From NCBI GenBank assembly GCA_021324415.1, contig JAJPJF010000447.1, forward strand, positions 1-41,043: DNA of 41,043 bases. Direction: 5' to 3'. Both the position numbers and the translations under genes were made by a program. Positions 4,300 to 41,043 of this stretch are shown piece by piece. The DNA is from Nostocales cyanobacterium Centralia_MAG_434. Its GTDB lineage: Bacteria; Cyanobacteriota; Cyanobacteriia; Cyanobacteriales; Nostocaceae. The notes below the pieces were generated by a model. That model saw only the letters and a list, made by a program, of their open reading frames with translations. It searched no databases and was not told the origin of the DNA. Each line of letters opens with the position of its first letter. Positions within the stretch are counted from its first letter, which is position 1.

Positions 4300-5541
4300 A
4301 TGGTTTCAATTGCTCGTAAAAACCTGCTTGAAGACATTCCTCGCTTCCTGGTAGCACAGGCAGGGATTATGTTTGCTGTTAGCCTAGTGACAATTCAGAC
4401 TGGGATTTTTCAGGGGTTTACCCGCTCTTCTGCTAAGTTAATCAACAATTCAACAGCTGACATATGGGTAGCATCAGACAGCATGGTGTACCTTGATCTA
4501 ACACTGCCACTTCCTCTAGCAGATGTCAATCTTGCTCAAAAAGTACCCGGTGTAGATCGAGCGGAAGCCTTAATTGCTAGTGGAGGGATGTGGCGTCACC
4601 CAGGAGGAGAAATTGCTCCAGTTAGAGTTATTGGTTTCGATCCACAGGGAGAATTGTTTACACCACAAAATCTCATCCAAGGAAGTGTGAACGCCTTAAA
4701 AGAGCCTTACACTGTCATAGTGGATACAAATAATTATGGCGCTCTTCACGTAAAACACGTAGGCGAACAAGCTGAGGTTAATTCCTTACCGGTACGATTG
4801 GTAGGCTTAACGCAAGGAAACCGATCCGTTGCGTCGAATCCCTATATGTTCACCTCCCTGGAGAGTGCCAGTTCTTACTTAAGTTCTGGTAAAACTGCTA
4901 CCTTGTCTTGCAAAACAAGAACAGGTTCTAGGGATATTCAGTGTACCAATGTTTATGAGCAATCTAATCAAAATTCTACTTCTACACCCAAACCCTTAGC
5001 CTCATCAGACCCCATTACCTATATACTGATTCGAGCCAAACCAGGTGAGAATCTACAAGCACTTAAACAAAAATTAGATGCCGCCATACCAGGCTCCCGT
5101 GCCTATACTCGTGCTGAAATGATCAAAAAAACACAAACTTACTGGCAAGAGCGAACTGGAATTGGATACCTTCTGGGTCTTGGCGCAACAGTGGGTGTTA
5201 TTGTTGGAGTGATTATTGTTGGGCAAATTCTATACTCTTCAGTGTCAGACCACATTAAAGAGTTTGGAACACTCAAAGCAATGGGCGCGTCTGATTGGGT
5301 TATATATGGTGTGATTATTGAACAAGCAATGTGGATGGCGGTTCTAGGTTATGTTCCCGGTACAATTCTTTGTTTAGGAATTGCAGCTTGGACATTGGCA
5401 AGTCAGGGAATCTTGATTTTAATTACACCAGTAACTGCAATTTCTGTTTTTGGGCTCACAGTTATCATGTGTATCGGTGCAGCAGTCTTTGCTATTCAAA
5501 AAGTGACCCGTGTTGATCCAGCAATTGTTTTTAAAGCATAG
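4300..5541 (+). CDS. DevC-like ABC transporter permease (MacB/FtsX type)
   Basis: 413-residue inner-membrane permease. An N-terminal hydrophobic helix (about residues 17-40) is followed by a large periplasmic MacB-like domain (about 45-280, with ADIWV near 53) and three C-terminal membrane helices forming the FtsX domain (LGLGATVGVIVGVIIVGQIL; a second near 345-365; a third near 375-400). The cytoplasmic loop LKAMGASDWVIYGVII is the FtsX coupling signature. DevC works with the ATPase DevA and the membrane-fusion protein DevB to export envelope components, such as glycolipids in heterocysts. The central insert with Cys residues around 204-216 is unusual. No DevB is visible upstream; see the findings for a possible remnant. 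Confidence 0.9.
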   Translation: MVSIARKNLLEDIPRFLVAQAGIMFAVSLVTIQTGIFQGFTRSSAKLINNSTADIWVASDSMVYLDLTLPLPLADVNLAQKVPGVDRAEALIASGGMWRHPGGEIAPVRVIGFDPQGELFTPQNLIQGSVNALKEPYTVIVDTNNYGALHVKHVGEQAEVNSLPVRLVGLTQGNRSVASNPYMFTSLESASSYLSSGKTATLSCKTRTGSRDIQCTNVYEQSNQNSTSTPKPLASSDPITYILIRAKPGENLQALKQKLDAAIPGSRAYTRAEMIKKTQTYWQERTGIGYLLGLGATVGVIVGVIIVGQILYSSVSDHIKEFGTLKAMGASDWVIYGVIIEQAMWMAVLGYVPGTILCLGIAAWTLASQGILILITPVTAISVFGLTVIMCIGAAVFAIQKVTRVDPAIVFKA

Positions 5542-5856
5542 TTTCACCATTATTTAAGGATATTTAAGGATATTTTAAGAATGGGTACAGAAAGCAAGTT
5601 TTAGGCTTTCAGTTTTAGCCTTCTTTGCTCCAACGACAAACTACTGACAACGCTAATGAATTATAGATGAAGTAAGACAATTCAACAATTTCAGTAGTTA
5701 AAATAGACACAAGTTGAATAAAATGAGACGTTAAATAGAGATAATGAATAGACTGAAACATGACTTTAGTTTTTAATAATTTGAACCATGTTTTCGAAGA
5801 AACTTAAATACGTAGTTTTTAATCTTTAACCTAACCAAAGCTAATAACCAAAGCAA
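5542..5856. other. Intergenic gap between DevC-like and DevA-like genes
   Basis: 315 bp without a credible gene. It holds a 10-bp direct duplication (TATTTAAGGA, about 5551-5570) and otherwise AT-rich DNA. Such a gap is long for two subunits of one transporter and leaves room for a separate promoter for the ATPase. I could not identify a clear NtcA box or -10/-35 pair. Confidence 0.6.
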
Positions 5857-6621
5857 ATGAGTCCTATACAAATAGACCCCAATGTGTCTACGACAATCAG
5901 AAACCAAGTTGCTTTTACACCAAACTCAACTCATATAGCAACAAAAGCGATCCTTGCTAAAGGTATTGCAATGACATTCGAGTCAGGGAAAGAGTCTTAT
6001 CAAGTTCTCAAAGGAGTTGATTGGGAAGTTCCAAAAGGCAGTATTCAACTGTTAATGGGACCATCTGGTTCGGGAAAAACCACGCTACTATCGATTTTAG
6101 CTGGACTGCTGACGCCAACAGAAGGGAGTGTCTATCTTCTAGGACAAGAAATTACACGCATGTCACGTCCTCAGCTAGCAAAGTTTCGATTGCAAAACAT
6201 TGGCTTTATTTTTCAAAGTTTCAACCTATTTCCAGCACTGACAGCATCAGAGAATGTTGAAGTCGTTTTGAATATTAAAGGTATTAACCGACATTTAGCA
6301 AAACATCAAGCGCAAGTGTTGCTAGAACAAGTTGGATTAGGTGATAAAGCAAATCAGAAGCCGAGTGAACTATCTGGTGGACAGAAACAGAGAGTGGCGA
6401 TCGCCCGTGCTTTGGCTGGTAATCCTCCAATAATTATGGCTGATGAGCCAACAGCAGCATTAGACTCTCATAGCGGGCATGCAGCCATCAACTTACTACG
6501 CAAATTGGCAAAAGAACAGGGCAGTACAGTATTAATTGTGACACACGACCCTCGTGTGATAGATGTAGCCGACCGAGTTGCCTACATTGAAGATGGAGTT
6601 CTCAAGCAAAATAGTCAATAG
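5857..6621 (+). CDS. DevA-like ABC transporter ATPase
   Basis: 254-residue ATPase of the MacB/LolD/DevA group. Walker A GPSGSGKTT (about 68-76), Q-loop FIFQSFNLFPALTASENV, signature LSGGQKQRVAIARAL, Walker B IIMADEPTAALD and the switch His in VTHDPR are all intact. The usual N-terminus of the family begins near residue 39 (MTFESGKESYQVLKGVDW), so about 35 residues before it are extra; an internal start is possible because the ATG at 5857 has only a weak ribosome-binding site. It probably energises the upstream DevC-like permease for export across the envelope. Confidence 0.93.
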   Translation: MSPIQIDPNVSTTIRNQVAFTPNSTHIATKAILAKGIAMTFESGKESYQVLKGVDWEVPKGSIQLLMGPSGSGKTTLLSILAGLLTPTEGSVYLLGQEITRMSRPQLAKFRLQNIGFIFQSFNLFPALTASENVEVVLNIKGINRHLAKHQAQVLLEQVGLGDKANQKPSELSGGQKQRVAIARALAGNPPIIMADEPTAALDSHSGHAAINLLRKLAKEQGSTVLIVTHDPRVIDVADRVAYIEDGVLKQNSQ

Positions 6622-34093: not shown

Positions 34094-35920
34094 TCATCCT
34101 CGTTGCCAAATTTTAATAGTGTCATCATCACTAGCACTGACTAAAGTTTGTCCATCTGGACTAAAGGCGATGGATCTTACATAGTTAGAATGCTCGTTAA
34201 GAGTAGATATTTCATTACCTGTATTTAGTTCCCAGATTTTGATAGTGTTATCCCAACTGCCACTAGCCATGGTTCCTCTAAGTCCTCCTGTATCAAAGGC
34301 AATTGGAGGAATTGGGTTGAAAGCGAGTGAGGAAACTGGGTTAGTATGACCAGTCAAAGTACGTATTTCTTTCCCTGTACTGACTTGCCACAGTTTTATC
34401 TTGTTGTCACTACTGCCACTAGCAAGAATTTTGCCATCCCAACTAAGAGTAACGGAATTGACAAAGAAGGAATGACCTGTAAGCGTACGAATCTCTCTAC
34501 CAGTACTTACTTGCCAGAATTTGATCGTGTAGTCAGCACTACCACTTACCAAGATTTCTCCATCTGGGCTAAAGGTGACTGAGCAAACTGAATCAGAATG
34601 ACCTGTAAGAGTTCGAATTTCTTGACCTGTATGTACTTGCCATATCTTAATTGTGCTGTTGGCACCACCACTAGCAAGTAAATTTCCATCGGGACTAAAG
34701 GCAATAGAATTCACCCAGCTAGAATGAGCTATGATTGTGCGGATTGCTCTACCTGTACTTAACATCCAGAGCTTAATGGTATCATCCCAACTGCCACTAG
34801 CAAGTAACTGCCCATCTGGGCTAAAGCTAAGGGTCTGTACCATGCTGGAATGACCATCAAACCAGCGACCCAGAGTACGAAGCAATCTTCCTGTGTCTGG
34901 TTGCCACAACTTAATAGTGTTGTTACCACTACCACTGGCAATCAACTGTCCATCTGGACTGATGACCACAGAGTGAACCATACTAGAATGACTTTTAAGC
35001 GTGTGTACGCATTGCCACCTCTCTGGTAAAGCAATTGGTGTGGAGAATTTCTGTTGAGGTGTGCTTGTGAGTGTTGGGGACAATGATGTTAAACTATCGC
35101 CGACACCCAATAGATCCAACCACTGCTGTATGGACTGGGGACGATAAATTGGCTGGAGCTCCATTCCTAGAAGAATTGCTTTATTGACTCTGTCGCTGAT
35201 GTTGGGATTGAAATGTTGTGGTGGGATGAGGGGAATATTGTTGCGTCTGTCATCCGCACTTGTGGGAATAAAGTTGGTCAATAAACTATATAAGGTAGCA
35301 GCTAAGCCATAAACATCAATATATTCTCCCCTTGGTGCTTCTAATTCATATTGTTCTGGAGGTGCAAAACCAGGTGTCCGATATACAGTGTGCCTTTGGA
35401 CAACATTAGGAATAAATTCTCTAGCAATTCCAAAGTCAATGAGTACTGCTTCCGATTTACCGTTGCGGATCATGATGTTGCGCGGTTTGATATCTCTATG
35501 GAGTAAACCTTTGCGGTGAATAACTTTTAAAGCATCACCAATTTGGCGCATGTAGAGCAATGCGTCCGCTTCTGGCAGCACTCCCATACGTTCAAGGCAC
35601 TTGCCTAAATCCTCGCCTTCTATATACTCCATCACCATACAAGGCAAATCGAACTCATCAAAGATGGTCTCTATCTGCACTATATGGGGATGACGACATA
35701 CAGCCAACCGAACAGCTTCATCTCGGAAGTCTTGCTTTAATTTGGCTTGGTGTGGTTTCCAAGCGGGGTTGTTGAGGATATTTTCTTTAAGGGTTTTTAT
35801 GACCCGCCGTTCACCTCTTTGGGTTCTAGCTAGGTAGGTGATACCAATTCCACCTTCACCTAGTTTTCTTTCGATAATGTATCGTCCTCCAAACAGCAGA
35901 TATCCCGCATTCCAGACCAT
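34094..35920 (-). CDS. Ser/Thr protein kinase fused to a seven-repeat WD40 propeller
   Basis: 608 residues. Hanks-type kinase domain (about 12-275): G-loop LGEGGIGITYLA, catalytic Lys42, HRDIKPRN (141-148), DFG (162-164) and TPGFAPPEQY. A short linker leads to WD40 repeats (about 305-607): I count seven units with the HS-x-x-V...SPDG...SGS-x-x-x-T-I-K-LW pattern, enough for a closed seven-bladed propeller. The sixth blade has an insertion (PPIAFDTGGLRGT). The kinase motifs are complete, so it should be active; the propeller likely binds partners. No phosphatase lies nearby. Common domain pair in filamentous cyanobacteria. Confidence 0.96.
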   Translation of the reverse strand: MVWNAGYLLFGGRYIIERKLGEGGIGITYLARTQRGERRVIKTLKENILNNPAWKPHQAKLKQDFRDEAVRLAVCRHPHIVQIETIFDEFDLPCMVMEYIEGEDLGKCLERMGVLPEADALLYMRQIGDALKVIHRKGLLHRDIKPRNIMIRNGKSEAVLIDFGIAREFIPNVVQRHTVYRTPGFAPPEQYELEAPRGEYIDVYGLAATLYSLLTNFIPTSADDRRNNIPLIPPQHFNPNISDRVNKAILLGMELQPIYRPQSIQQWLDLLGVGDSLTSLSPTLTSTPQQKFSTPIALPERWQCVHTLKSHSSMVHSVVISPDGQLIASGSGNNTIKLWQPDTGRLLRTLGRWFDGHSSMVQTLSFSPDGQLLASGSWDDTIKLWMLSTGRAIRTIIAHSSWVNSIAFSPDGNLLASGGANSTIKIWQVHTGQEIRTLTGHSDSVCSVTFSPDGEILVSGSADYTIKFWQVSTGREIRTLTGHSFFVNSVTLSWDGKILASGSSDNKIKLWQVSTGKEIRTLTGHTNPVSSLAFNPIPPIAFDTGGLRGTMASGSWDNTIKIWELNTGNEISTLNEHSNYVRSIAFSPDGQTLVSASDDDTIKIWQRG

Positions 35921-36629: not shown

Positions 36630-37538
36630 ATGTTTAAAAATTTTAGTTTGAAACAAAAATTTACAGTTCTACTACTCATAATTCTAGTGGTAGGTCTGAG
36701 CTTGAGTGGATTGATTTTATCTTCTCTGTTGAGGCAAAACGCTACAAATGAAGTTGCCTCAAAAGCTTTAGCTCTCATCGACACCATGAGTTCTGTCCGT
36801 CAGTACACTGTTACCCAAATCACTCCCGAGTTATCTGATAAATTGCAAACTAAGTTTTTGCCGCAAACTGTAGCAGGCTATTCTGCACGAGAGGTGTTTG
36901 ATATCTTACGACAAAAACCTGAATATCGTGACTTCTTTTATAAAGAAGCAACTCTTAACCCTACTAATCTTCGGGACAAAGCTGACAGTTTTGAGTCAAC
37001 AGTTGTAAATCGTTTCAGAAATGAAAAAGATTTAAAGCAATTGAGTGGATTTCGCTCAACTCCTGGTGGTGATATTTTCTATATTGCTCGTCCACTGCCA
37101 GTTTCTAAGACAACCTGTCTAGAATGTCATGGCAAGCCTGAGAATGCGCCTAAAACTATGATTGACCAATATGGTACAGCTAATGGATTTGGGTGGCAGA
37201 TGAATGAAATTGTCGCTGCTCAGATTATTGCGATTCCAGCTAGTAAAGTCCTTGCTCAAGCCTCTCAATCCTCGTTTCTGATTGTAGGACTTGTATCCGC
37301 TATTTTTGTTGTCGTCATCTTGTTAGTCAACTTTTTCTTGAACACACAAGTTGTACGCCCTCTTAAACATATAACTCGCATTGCAGAGGAAGTGAGTACA
37401 GGTCATATGGAAGCTGAATTTGAACAGCTATCGAATGATGAAATTGGGAAACTAGCACGAGCATTCAAACGGATGCAGTTAAGTTTGCAAATGGCAATGA
37501 AAAGAATCAAACGTACTCATGGAAATACGGAGTTTTAG
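36630..37538 (+). CDS. DUF3365 (Tll0287-like) c-type haem sensor protein with HAMP domain
   Basis: 302 residues. First membrane helix about 10-32; periplasmic Tll0287-like DUF3365 domain (about 40-210) with the c-type haem motif CLECH (163-167); second helix about 214-235 (FLIVGLVSAIFVVVILLVNFF); HAMP domain 236-288 (RPLKHITRIAEEVSTGHMEAEFEQLSNDEIGKLARAFKRM). It stops soon after the HAMP, so it has no histidine kinase or cyclase output of its own and must signal through a partner or act as a scaffold. It probably senses redox state or a haem ligand in the periplasm. It ends 19 bp from the convergent kinase gene. Confidence 0.9.
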   Translation: MFKNFSLKQKFTVLLLIILVVGLSLSGLILSSLLRQNATNEVASKALALIDTMSSVRQYTVTQITPELSDKLQTKFLPQTVAGYSAREVFDILRQKPEYRDFFYKEATLNPTNLRDKADSFESTVVNRFRNEKDLKQLSGFRSTPGGDIFYIARPLPVSKTTCLECHGKPENAPKTMIDQYGTANGFGWQMNEIVAAQIIAIPASKVLAQASQSSFLIVGLVSAIFVVVILLVNFFLNTQVVRPLKHITRIAEEVSTGHMEAEFEQLSNDEIGKLARAFKRMQLSLQMAMKRIKRTHGNTEF

Positions 37539-37557
37539 GAGAGTTACGAGTTAGAAA

Positions 37558-38826
37558 TCATAAAAATAGACTACGTCTAAATTCAAATGCCGCTTGTACT
37601 TCAGGAATTTCTCTTGCTAAAATTTCAACAAATTCGTAAGGTGACAGATTAGGAGTCTCAGCCAGAGTTTCTTCCACAATGAGATCTGCCATTGGTCCAA
37701 TATGGTAAGCTAGCTCTTGCTGACAACGCTTTATAAAAGCTGGATCTATCGACGACGATGGTTGTTGAATTTGAGAAGTTTGCTGATTAAAAATTTGAGA
37801 AGTTTGCTGATTATAGGATTTCCCAGTTGTGTCTTGAGGGGAATTAACAAAGCTTGAGATTGTTTGTCCTATTGTTCTTATAGAGCCAAATTCAGGGGTT
37901 ATTACAGTAGGAGGTATTTCAATAATTGTTGATTGCTCGTCTGCTGTTTCAGATTGTTGAAGATGCTCAAGATCCATCAGCACGTCTCTTGATGTTTTGT
38001 ATCGCTGTTTAGGCGTATCTGCTAACATCTGATCTAGTATTTGAGCAAACTCATGGCTAACATTAGTGTATTGATGCCAATTCCACTCCAAAGAGTATTG
38101 ATCCATCAGAAATGATGGGTCTCTACCTGTTAGTAAGACAATTGCAGTCACACCTAGCGCATAAAGGTCACTGCTGGGAGAACATAATCCTAAGCTAATC
38201 TGTTCTCGGGGAGCGTATCCTACTTTTCCTACTAGCGACATTTTGCCAACAAAAGGCACATGCTCTAAAGTTCTAGCCTCGTTAACGTCGGCTATTTGCT
38301 TACCAACACCAAAGTCGATCAGCACAGGTATATCCTTACTTTCAAGCAGCATAATATTATCAGGAGAAATATCTCGATGAATAATATTATGCTGATGAAT
38401 ATATTCCAAAACAGGTAGCAGATGTTTTAGCCAAAGTATAATTTCGTCTTCAGAAAAAGCTCGTCCTTGTTTTTGGTATTCATGTAACAGGGTTGAATAT
38501 GTTTTACCATTGACAAATTCTTGAACTAAGAACAAACGTCCATCGCCCTCAAAGCATGCTAAAAATTTAGGAATTTGAGGGTGTTCTAATTGATGGAGAA
38601 TTTTTGCCTCTCTTCTGAACAAAGTCCGACATTTTTCTAGGCCATTCTCTCCTGTTCCAATGGGAGCGAATTCCTTGAGAACACAAGGTTCATTGAAGCG
38701 ACGTGTATCAAATGCTAAATAAGTTCTTCCCAGACCACCCTGTCCTAGAAGTGCTTGGATAATATAGCGGTTATCAATCAAAGTCCCGGCAGGTATTTCG
38801 GGTTTTACTAGGGGAGCTTGAGACAT
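37558..38826 (-). CDS. Ser/Thr protein kinase with cyanobacterial C-terminal helical domain
   Basis: 422 residues from the ATG at 38826 (family start followed by GTLIDNRYIIQALLGQGG). Hanks-type kinase: G-loop LGQGGLGRTYLA, Lys51 (VLKEF), HRDISPDN (150-157), DFG (171-173). The catalytic-loop Lys after HRD is Ser in this protein (HRDIS instead of HRDLK), which may lower or alter activity, though related cyanobacterial kinases share this. A Ser/Thr/Gln-rich linker with repeats of QTSQIFNQ leads to a C-terminal domain (about 365-422, RCQQELAYHIGPMADLIVEE) that recurs in cyanobacterial signalling proteins. It is convergent with the haem sensor gene. Confidence 0.93.
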   Translation of the reverse strand: MSQAPLVKPEIPAGTLIDNRYIIQALLGQGGLGRTYLAFDTRRFNEPCVLKEFAPIGTGENGLEKCRTLFRREAKILHQLEHPQIPKFLACFEGDGRLFLVQEFVNGKTYSTLLHEYQKQGRAFSEDEIILWLKHLLPVLEYIHQHNIIHRDISPDNIMLLESKDIPVLIDFGVGKQIADVNEARTLEHVPFVGKMSLVGKVGYAPREQISLGLCSPSSDLYALGVTAIVLLTGRDPSFLMDQYSLEWNWHQYTNVSHEFAQILDQMLADTPKQRYKTSRDVLMDLEHLQQSETADEQSTIIEIPPTVITPEFGSIRTIGQTISSFVNSPQDTTGKSYNQQTSQIFNQQTSQIQQPSSSIDPAFIKRCQQELAYHIGPMADLIVEETLAETPNLSPYEFVEILAREIPEVQAAFEFRRSLFL

Positions 38827-39165
38827 ATTATGCACTCCTAAAGATCTTGTTGATAGATCTTTTATTGTGTTAAAATTAAGCAAATATAAGTTGAATATCT
38901 ATGCAGCAAATAGTAAAATTATCTACAAAATTGCTATAAGCATATTTTACGTTTTCATAGTTAGAAAATCCTCATACTACCTTAGTAACTATTTTTTACT
39001 AGGATAAACAATAAAATTTTATATTCTTTTATTAAGAATCTGTTACAGAATAGTCAATTTCTCTTGAGAGAATTGTTTAACTCTAGAGATCCCGATTAAT
39101 TATCAGTACAGTTTTAGCTAAAAACGCATAAAAATTGTAAATTTATATAAACTAGCATGCACAAA
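38827..39165. other. Intergenic region between PhnD-type protein and kinase genes
   Basis: 339 bp of AT-rich DNA. It should contain the promoter of the kinase gene. No gene, repeat or clear hairpin was found. Confidence 0.5.
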
Positions 39166-40068
39166 CTATTTGCTCGAGTTCTTAGTATTCTCAGGTGCAG
39201 CTTGGCTTAGTATAACGGGTGTTTGTTTAAGCCGTGCCTCAAGAGGTTTGACTTTTTCTACCAGTTTAATAAACTCATCGTAGTTAGGGACTGGAGCAGT
39301 AGGGATATAACCAGCATCTGCTGCAATATCTGCTGATACTTCACTCATTGCTTTTTGAATTTGCTGCTGTCGGTTGCGCTCTATAGTTGGTCCAAGCAAG
39401 ACAACTCCAGGCGGAATCCACCGACTTACGTGTAATACTCTAAATTTAGTTCCTCCAAAATCCCGTTTATAAAGCTCAAAATCCTTCTCAGATAAAGCAC
39501 CTGCATCAACTTTTTCATCACTTAGCCACTGCAGTAATGTTTTAGGTGTGGGAGCAAAACGAATTTGCGCAAGGGTTAAACCATAGAGATCGTACAAAGG
39601 AACATAGTACCCAGCAGCAGAACCCTCCTCTCCTAAAGCAATGGTCTTATTAGCTAAGTCTGATATTTTTTGAATTGGTTTATCATCCCGCACTACAAGT
39701 AAGGAGCGTTGTCTACTACTAATTCCCTCCAGTGAAAATAACGGAATGTAGAGATCATTCCCGATCGCGATCGCTGCTAAACCAGGAGACGCAAACACTA
39801 TATCCCATTTTTTGCGATGAATTTGCTCTAGGGCTTGTAATTCATTATAAGCAGGCTCTAACTCTACAATTGAGTGCGTTTGTGCTGCCATATAATCTTT
39901 GAAGCGCTCATATTTTTCTAGTGAAACTGCGCCCTCACCGTAGCTGACTACACCTATAGTCAGTCTTTCTGTGTTGTTGTTTTGTTTTTTTGAACCGCAT
40001 CCGACTCCTAGTAGCGTTATAAGTACTAGTATTGGAAGCAGTAACCACTGCCAATCCGTCCTTTTCAT
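39166..40068 (-). CDS. Orphan PhnD-type substrate-binding lipoprotein
   Basis: 300 residues. Lipobox LGVGC with lipidation at Cys24 after a hydrophobic stretch (LLLPILVLITLL). The mature part has the phosphonate/phosphite-binding PhnD-like fold: LTIGVVSYGEGAVSLEKYERF, KWDIVFASPGLAAIA, DLANKTIALGEEGSAAGYYVP and the KVDAGALSEKDFELY segment. No permease or ATPase is adjacent, so transport alone is not supported. Such orphan proteins often feed ligand signals to sensors in the membrane. It is on the same strand as the kinase and upstream of it, and close to the haem sensor. Confidence 0.9.
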   Translation of the reverse strand: MKRTDWQWLLLPILVLITLLGVGCGSKKQNNNTERLTIGVVSYGEGAVSLEKYERFKDYMAAQTHSIVELEPAYNELQALEQIHRKKWDIVFASPGLAAIAIGNDLYIPLFSLEGISSRQRSLLVVRDDKPIQKISDLANKTIALGEEGSAAGYYVPLYDLYGLTLAQIRFAPTPKTLLQWLSDEKVDAGALSEKDFELYKRDFGGTKFRVLHVSRWIPPGVVLLGPTIERNRQQQIQKAMSEVSADIAADAGYIPTAPVPNYDEFIKLVEKVKPLEARLKQTPVILSQAAPENTKNSSK

Positions 40069-40913: not shown

Positions 40914-41043
40914 ATGTATAGAACACTTAAAGTTAGAATTTATCCGACTGACGAGCAAGAATCTTATTTAGCTCAATGCTTTGGTAATACTCGTTGGTTG
41001 TGGAATTATATGCTTAATGCCACTACTAGCGCGTATAAAGAAA
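40914..41043 (+). CDS. tnpB: IS200/IS605-family TnpB (OrfB), 5' part only
   Basis: 43 codons run to the window edge from the ATG at 40914, with GGTAAGG upstream. The start MYRTLKVRIYPTDEQESYLA and then FGNTRWLWNYMLN are the conserved N-terminus of IS605 OrfB/TnpB, an RNA-guided nuclease ancestral to Cas12. The RuvC catalytic residues lie beyond the window, so activity cannot be judged. No tnpA is visible upstream in the window, so it is either a solo tnpB element or has its tnpA elsewhere. Confidence 0.88.
   Translation, partial: MYRTLKVRIYPTDEQESYLAQCFGNTRWLWNYMLNATTSAYKE

Follow-up and report, generated by a model that had tools for sequence, protein, structure and literature searches.

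We analysed a 41,043-nucleotide stretch of DNA from Nostocales cyanobacterium Centralia_MAG_434 (hereafter the window; it forms contig C82 in a genome of 8.4 Mb), in which the genes for a c-type haem sensor, a Ser/Thr kinase and a PhnD-type lipoprotein lie together (Table 1). With moderate confidence, we suggest that they encode a split receptor, in which the HAMP domain of the sensor would dock effector enzymes via a STAC-like domain and the PhnD-type protein would act as an optional co-receptor. This reading rests on gene linkage, co-occurrence, a shared C-terminal domain (CTD), the variety of the effectors and a predicted fold, all of which were computed. The original prediction that the three genes form one module is supported on genomic grounds, as the same genes were linked in other genomes in two orders with different flanks. 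That prediction had overlooked a further link, in that the 60 C-terminal residues of the kinase are found again on other proteins encoded beside the sensor, as well as a second module in the same genome.

The sensor had been described as an output-less c-haem protein with a Tll0287-like domain and HAMP, and the Pfam results bore this out. Its 302 residues matched the Tll0287-like family (PF11845) at positions 35-203 (E = 8.5e-41) and HAMP at positions 237-287 (E = 1e-10), and only 15 residues followed HAMP, with the output domain absent. Hydrophobic stretches were found at residues 12-30 and ~207-245, the latter split in two by the hydropathy script. The protein contained a single CXXCH motif (CLECH), of which both Cys residues and the His were invariant in 27 aligned sensors. 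Cys163 and Cys166 were its sole cysteines, and it lacked the axial Cys found in the redox-type (Tll0287) branch, so that the sensor appears to fit the HAMP-linked branch. The available text of a study on sCache_heme (DUF3365/Tll0287) sensors describes a HAMP-linked member without the axial Cys, composed of two transmembrane helices and HAMP only, that binds nitric oxide (NO) tightly (PMC12889525). Since the window sensor likewise has no Cys beyond CXXCH, NO is our best guess for its haem ligand, by analogy. A profile of the sensor also matched the HAMP domain of AF1503 (E = 5e-10) and Tll0287 (E = 5e-4). Among the relatives, the sensor gene was present as a tandem duplicate beside the kinase gene in L099, L101, L107, L112 and other loci, and such copies may act as heterodimers. 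In Kovacikia minuta (L246:8001-9575, + strand), a Tll0287-HAMP sensor was fused to a cyclic-nucleotide-binding (cNMP) domain.

The predicted Ser/Thr kinase with an HRDIS loop was likewise confirmed, by a Pkinase match (E = 9.6e-38) and the motif HRDISPDN; DFG was also present, and no hydrophobic stretch was detected at the cut used. The true start of the kinase is probably the ATG at 38826, because most close homologues align from residue 14-20. The sensor and kinase genes are arranged tail to tail, while the kinase and lipoprotein genes share a strand and are separated by 282 bases as open reading frames (ORFs), or by ~340 if the kinase begins at 38826.

A genome-wide search with the CTD profile (E up to 0.001) found four copies in three proteins, all of which were encoded beside Tll0287-HAMP sensors. 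These were the window kinase and two proteins of a second module on contig C459, which contained a PhnD protein, a HisKA_3-HATPase protein with two CTDs, a HisKA_3 protein with one and a pair of sensors, of which one had a longer post-HAMP tail. The genome held five Tll0287-like matches, three of which adjoin CTD proteins; the remaining two were located on C117 (a 9.4-kb contig) and C366 (a 672-residue frame). In other genomes, the CTD was at the end of caspase-like proteins (C14 by Pfam in L134, L220 and L235), cyclase-kinase proteins (by Pfam in L216, L223, L232 and L236) and a CHAT-kinase protein (L214). As enzymes of several kinds, encoded beside one kind of sensor, end in this tail, these results suggest that the CTD is a plug joining sensor and enzyme. 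We also observed C14 caspase-like proteins with two CTDs near the sensor in L128 and L133-L136, beside sigma-70 region 4 and DUF1822 proteins; here, Pfam was run on the L134 members.

To describe the gene linkage, each of the three proteins was used as a query against 60 relatives (the genome itself included), and the loci were fetched. The three genes stayed together in two orders of 12 loci each. The window type (lipoprotein, kinase and convergent sensor) comprised the window and 11 loci (L099, L100, L101, L104-L109, L111 and L112). In the second type, the lipoprotein and sensor genes were divergent and the kinase gene was convergent with that of the sensor (L118, L119, L121, L122, L123, L125, L126, L130, L131, L132, L137 and L139), and the flanking genes formed several distinct sets. 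The lipoprotein gene lay ~28 kb off in L102, and the L113 and L114 stretches showed none. The ORFs for PhnD and kinase were ~50 bases apart in L111 and adjacent as called in L134; judged from this close spacing, the two genes are likely co-transcribed in both loci.

The three genes might be neighbours through inherited gene order only, with the kinase, the haem protein and PhnD acting separately. A wider block was indeed kept in the window-type loci (the WD40 kinase, an SDH protease, a peptidoglycan-binding protein, NusA and others). However, the linkage persisted in the second order with other flanks, with other effectors, and as a sensor-kinase pair in Proteobacteria, and we rejected neutral synteny on these grounds as improbable.

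At cut-offs of 1e-20 for the sensor and PhnD and 1e-5 for the CTD, the three families were present together in 29 of the 60 relatives and all absent from 25, while five relatives had the sensor only and one had the sensor and the CTD. These genomes encoded 76 CTD proteins, 38 of them within 500 bp of a sensor gene and 45 within 5 kb; ~0.04 would be expected by chance according to rough arithmetic (85 sensors, ~6 Mb per genome, 2.5-kb target). A sensor-profile search provided a second sample of 79 named loci, drawn from the best 80 of 573 confirmed matches and therefore favouring close relatives; all were cyanobacterial by title, each extended up to 10 kb on each side, and some of the genomes overlap the 60 relatives. 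The sensor, CTD and PhnD were found together in 45 of these loci, the sensor and CTD in 23, the sensor and PhnD in three and the sensor only in eight. The sensor and CTD genes were convergent in 66 of the 68 loci that had both, and the distances of sensor, CTD and PhnD were correlated with r values of 0.84-0.90 (45 loci, uncorrected for the species tree). Simple motifs sorted the 70 CTD ORFs found in the named loci into 57 kinases, seven cyclase-kinase proteins, three caspase-like proteins and three unassigned ones, and the HRD..N and DFG motifs were both kept in 64.

If the CTD supplies the missing output, it is expected to accompany sensors that terminate at HAMP and not the haem domain as such. 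This expectation was examined in 145 genomes of the class, in which a sensor was called short when its open frame was below 355 residues (our own cut) and the short frames were partly read singly. In the first table, the CTD was present in 36 of 39 genomes with a short-frame sensor and in one of 13 with only longer ones. Two corrections were made after this table had been seen: G104 was reassigned, as its sensors end at HAMP despite long frames, and G125 gained a sensor-adjacent CTD protein via a looser cut in a smaller database. In the corrected table, the CTD accompanied a HAMP-terminated sensor in 38 of 40 genomes and was found in none of 12 with only longer sensors, of which nine had one locus read and three (G093, G109 and G119) were judged by their frames of 748-941 residues. 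The genomes share ancestry, and Fisher values for the first table therefore overstate its significance. The CTD thus follows sensors that stop at HAMP, and tailed sensors do without it. PhnD and the CTD were both present in 34 of the 145 genomes and both absent from 104, with PhnD only in one and the CTD only in six. The CTD was not found in any of 38 'same phylum' genomes outside the class.

Several results weigh against the split-receptor reading. In the 60 relatives, G059 accounted for 11 CTD proteins, and none of these shared a contig with a sensor; outside G059, 27 of 65 CTD proteins were on a sensor-less contig or >500 bp away from any sensor (20 of 65 at a 5-kb cut). Because many CTD proteins are encoded away from sensors, one sensor may serve several effectors in rich genomes, or the CTD may have other partners. 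In the class-wide sample, G155 and G184 had a sensor with no CTD found, G187 had a CTD with no sensor detected, and the CTD was on a 3.6-kb contig in G099 and on contigs of 3.2 kb and 25 kb in G115. Furthermore, six genomes (G061, G085, G100, G112, G123 and G189) had sensors of 365-381 residues in which the profile match was followed by a charged tail of 42-49 residues, similar in all six, and by no recognisable output domain, yet no CTD was present. A missing output is therefore not in itself a predictor of the CTD, whereas ending at HAMP is, and these tailed, output-less sensors weaken the class-wide test. Among other longer sensors, G169 had a tailed 356-residue sensor beside PhnD, with frames of 833 and 842 residues elsewhere, and the sensors of G128 (524 residues) and G069 (638 residues) had long C-terminal parts.

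These points bear on a second explanation, namely that signalling enzymes carry the CTD as a general tail for oligomerisation or regulation and not as a dock for this sensor, the functional link between the two being indirect. Of the 76 CTD proteins, half (38) had no sensor gene within 500 bp, the CTD was often present in two copies, and the six genomes with tailed sensors manage without it. On the other hand, the window genome had just three CTD proteins, all adjacent to sensors, and CTD presence across the class tracked the HAMP-terminated sensor. We regard the general tail as unlikely, although it deserves some weight.

A second kind of sensor was noted at L117:13669-15633, L127:8115-10059 and L272-L278, with a conserved charged tail of ~45 residues after HAMP and no CTD partner. 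The genes next to the tailed sensor in L117 and L127 belonged to one ParA/MinD-like ATPase cluster, and a different output route is possible for these sensors.

The window CTD showed no family match in Pfam or NCBIfam at E = 1; scattered members gave weak matches, the best being to PXA in four of 44 members (E = 0.00062). The predicted structure consisted of four helices with a mean pLDDT of 87.5 and a Gly-Pro between helices 1 and 2, in line with the bundle of two helical hairpins and 60-90 residues that characterises STAC domains. Over 44 sequences, the Gly and Pro were invariant and an Ala was conserved in at least 90%, in keeping with an LGPx(x)A-type motif. According to the available text of PMC4834066, AF1502 of Archaeoglobus folds into two hairpins that form a four-helix bundle, with the LGPx(x)A motif placed between the first and second helix, and its gene is coupled to that of AF1503, AF1503-like receptors ending at HAMP. 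When the CTD model was compared with 350,542 PDB chains using Foldseek, chains of AF1502 ranked first and second with probabilities of 0.90 and 0.89, and the next chains reached 0.28 at most. VIA-align gave AF1502 a Z-score of 5.8 versus 5.2 for the next, unrelated row, which is weak for a helical bundle. Alignment of CTD profiles with the STAC domain of RpuS and nine plasmid relatives by hhalign gave probabilities of 36-77 at scores of 22-28. Column shuffling, repeated 60 times for each of three profiles, reached top scores of 15.4, 14.1 and 12.3, below the real scores (profile A4 was unshuffled). Other results count against the proposed likeness. The Foldseek E-value for AF1502 was about 1, HMMER yielded no significant match between the CTD and the STAC domain of RpuS, and the sequence match to AF1502 was unstable: it was the best match of profile A1 (E = 0.0021), ranked third for A6 (E = 0.57) and was not found when the narrower A4 was searched against the PDB. 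We therefore call the domain STAC-like and do not file it as STAC, also because it is not joined to an SLC5 transporter, the kinase being without a transmembrane stretch.

The original prediction also described the lipoprotein as a PhnD-type binding protein without a permease, and this held in the window: Pfam identified neither an ABC (ATP-binding cassette) permease nor an ATPase in seven ORFs tested between 32390 and 40499, and the ABC pair of the window is of the exporter type. The protein matched PF12974 (E = 3.4e-30) and had one N-terminal hydrophobic stretch, and Cys24 was invariant across 37 aligned sequences, although the putative lipobox appears atypical at position -3. PhnD proteins are usually part of ABC transporters. 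The genome's own PhnD-ABC-permease-permease cluster, with a separate PhnD, was found on contig C58. The suggestion that a transporter might accompany the lipoprotein elsewhere was examined in the surroundings of the 48 linked PhnD genes of the named loci: a 3-kb radius around them contained no homologue of the PhnE of this genome, but an ABC ATPase homologue was present at that distance in 12 of the 48. In nine of these 12, the gene was ~2.4-2.6 kb long. Pfam assigned the L099 protein, a relative of this size, as an FHA-ABC-ABC2 membrane fusion and the L226 protein as an ATPase whose C-terminus is of the branched-chain amino-acid type, while the L222 ATPase remained unassigned by Pfam.

The predicted model of the window PhnD protein (pLDDT 88.3) was closest to the structures of XAC2383, ArrX and PtxB. 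XAC2383-XAC2382 is reportedly a PhnD-like signalling pair, said to have been described by Teixeira in 2018. ArrX is a signalling protein with a PhnD fold that works with a membrane sensor, as stated in the available text of PMC5908839, and in the 48 loci the lipoprotein gene was likewise linked to that of a membrane sensor, with no PhnE homologue inside the 3-kb limit. The pocket motif STSG was changed to SA[A/T/S]G in 36 of the 48 and to Ser-Val-Thr-Gly in two, with 10 outside this pattern. A third explanation would assign the haem protein to redox chemistry or electron transfer and PhnD to a transporter, with the kinase regulating that pathway. Stand-alone Tll0287 proteins do have redox-like properties in the text available to us (PMC12889525), and the usual association of PhnD with ABC transporters and the 12 ABC ATPase loci fit this explanation. 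It is nevertheless improbable: the sensor has HAMP and no Cys beyond CXXCH, as in the NO-binding HAMP-linked member described there (PMC12889525), PhnE homologues were lacking near the 48 linked genes, the three ABC proteins had the Pfam assignments given above, and the closest structures of PhnD are those of signalling proteins. In 23 of the 68 sensor-CTD loci, PhnD was not seen in the stretch examined, which speaks against it as an essential component; PhnD is thus optional in the module.

In a plasmid collection, the sensor query matched 10 records. The six proteobacterial matches that reach HAMP were from Skermanella, Rhodovulum, three Caballeronia and Paraburkholderia, and in all six a same-strand Ser/Thr kinase gene came directly after the sensor gene. 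Each of the four translated plasmid kinases (L239-L242) carried two CTD copies, and the Skermanella kinase, used as a query at E = 1e-60, returned five plasmids, all within the six. A PhnD-type product was missing from the annotations of the six stretches shown, which again counts against a general role of PhnD. Type VI secretion genes adjoined the sensor-kinase pair in five of the six plasmids (L239-L242, L247 and L248), and a PP2C phosphatase gene was present in two; haem or NO input to the control of type VI secretion is possible in Proteobacteria. On a plasmid of Rippkaea orientalis PCC 8801 (L243/L244), the PhnD and sensor genes were divergent and a caspase-domain CTD protein was encoded ~5.5 kb away across the record start. 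Insertion-sequence genes were present on both sides of this module, which may therefore move. The Kovacikia fusion described above was a further plasmid match; the last two, from Sphaerospermopsis and Vibrio, were annotated as hypothetical protein and diguanylate cyclase, and the Vibrio match was without HAMP.

Table 1. Coordinates of the features discussed, numbered from the first nucleotide of the window.
Feature	Position	Strand	Basis or remark
c-haem sensor: transmembrane helix, Tll0287-like (sCache_heme) domain with CLECH, transmembrane helix, HAMP, stop	36630-37538	+	Pfam, hydropathy, alignment
Soluble Hanks-type Ser/Thr kinase with CTD	37558-38883 (ORF, TTG start)	-	Pfam, motifs
60-residue CTD of the kinase, STAC-like, four predicted helices, proposed HAMP dock	37567-37746	-	
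PhnD-type (PF12974) lipoprotein, no permease nearby, proposed periplasmic co-receptor	39166-40068	-	
Second Ser/Thr kinase, WD40-repeat fusion	34094-35920	-	Pfam
ABC pair, FtsX/MacB exporter type	4300-6621		~33 kb from the module

The WD40-repeat kinase was rejected as a core partner, as it has no CTD and was kept beside the sensor in window-type loci only. An ORF that starts at ~40915-41043 on the + strand and is cut by the contig end resembles that of a TnpB-type transposase, judged by a sequence motif.

We infer the following scheme, including its physical contacts, ligand, direction of regulation and kinase targets, from the results above. The lipoprotein would bind a ligand in the periplasm and act as a co-receptor on the haem-Cache domain, in the manner of AioX or XAC2383, and the haem-Cache domain itself may sense NO or the redox state. 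The change would cross the membrane via the second transmembrane helix to HAMP, where the sensor ends. Output would then be given in trans: the kinase would use the STAC-like bundle of four helices at its C-terminus to dock on HAMP, and the state of HAMP would set kinase activity. Elsewhere, the same dock would bring histidine-kinase-like, caspase-like, cyclase-kinase and CHAT-kinase proteins to this kind of sensor.

We compared this arrangement with known systems. The available text on AF1503/AF1502 (PMC4834066) describes a HAMP-ended receptor coupled to a small four-helix Gly-Pro domain, and the CTD gene is coupled to a HAMP-terminated receptor in the same way, though not for every CTD protein. 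In contrast to the stand-alone archaeal AF1502, the STAC-like domain here is fused C-terminally to kinases and other enzymes of Cyanobacteria and Proteobacteria, and the receptor is a c-haem Cache sensor. In the SLC5-STAC kinases CbrA, CrbS and RpuS, STAC is believed to pass an event at the membrane on to the kinase, according to the text available (PMC13022988); there, it is an internal linker after the transporter, whereas here it is C-terminal, and the protein that carries it is a separate one and lacks a transporter domain. The sCache_heme sensors share the CXXCH Cache domain, and their study contrasts fused outputs with stand-alone domains, with no trans partner described in the available text (PMC12889525). 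The AioX/ArrX type shares a PhnD-fold binding protein with a membrane sensor, as far as the available text goes (PMC5908839). Unlike that type and XAC2383-XAC2382, the partner here is an output-less haem sensor and the STSG pocket motif is changed.

A literature search, whose coverage did not extend to Korycinski 2015 (STAC), found no paper that we recognised as describing this pairing of sensor and CTD effector. More broadly, and with slightly less than even confidence, we propose a class of split transmembrane receptors in Cyanobacteria and Proteobacteria, and by homology also the archaeal AF1503/AF1502, in which the receptor would end with HAMP and a STAC-like domain would be a universal plug exchanging kinase, cyclase, histidine-kinase and caspase-like outputs in trans. 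The signalling of output-less HAMP receptors and the role of STAC are open questions in the available texts of PMC4834066 and PMC13022988. With a candidate partner fused to enzymes of measurable activity, the question becomes one of a binding and kinase assay. If true, the split-receptor reading would provide a function for an unnamed domain, a route from sensor to Ser/Thr kinase in bacteria and a new PhnD-type co-receptor.

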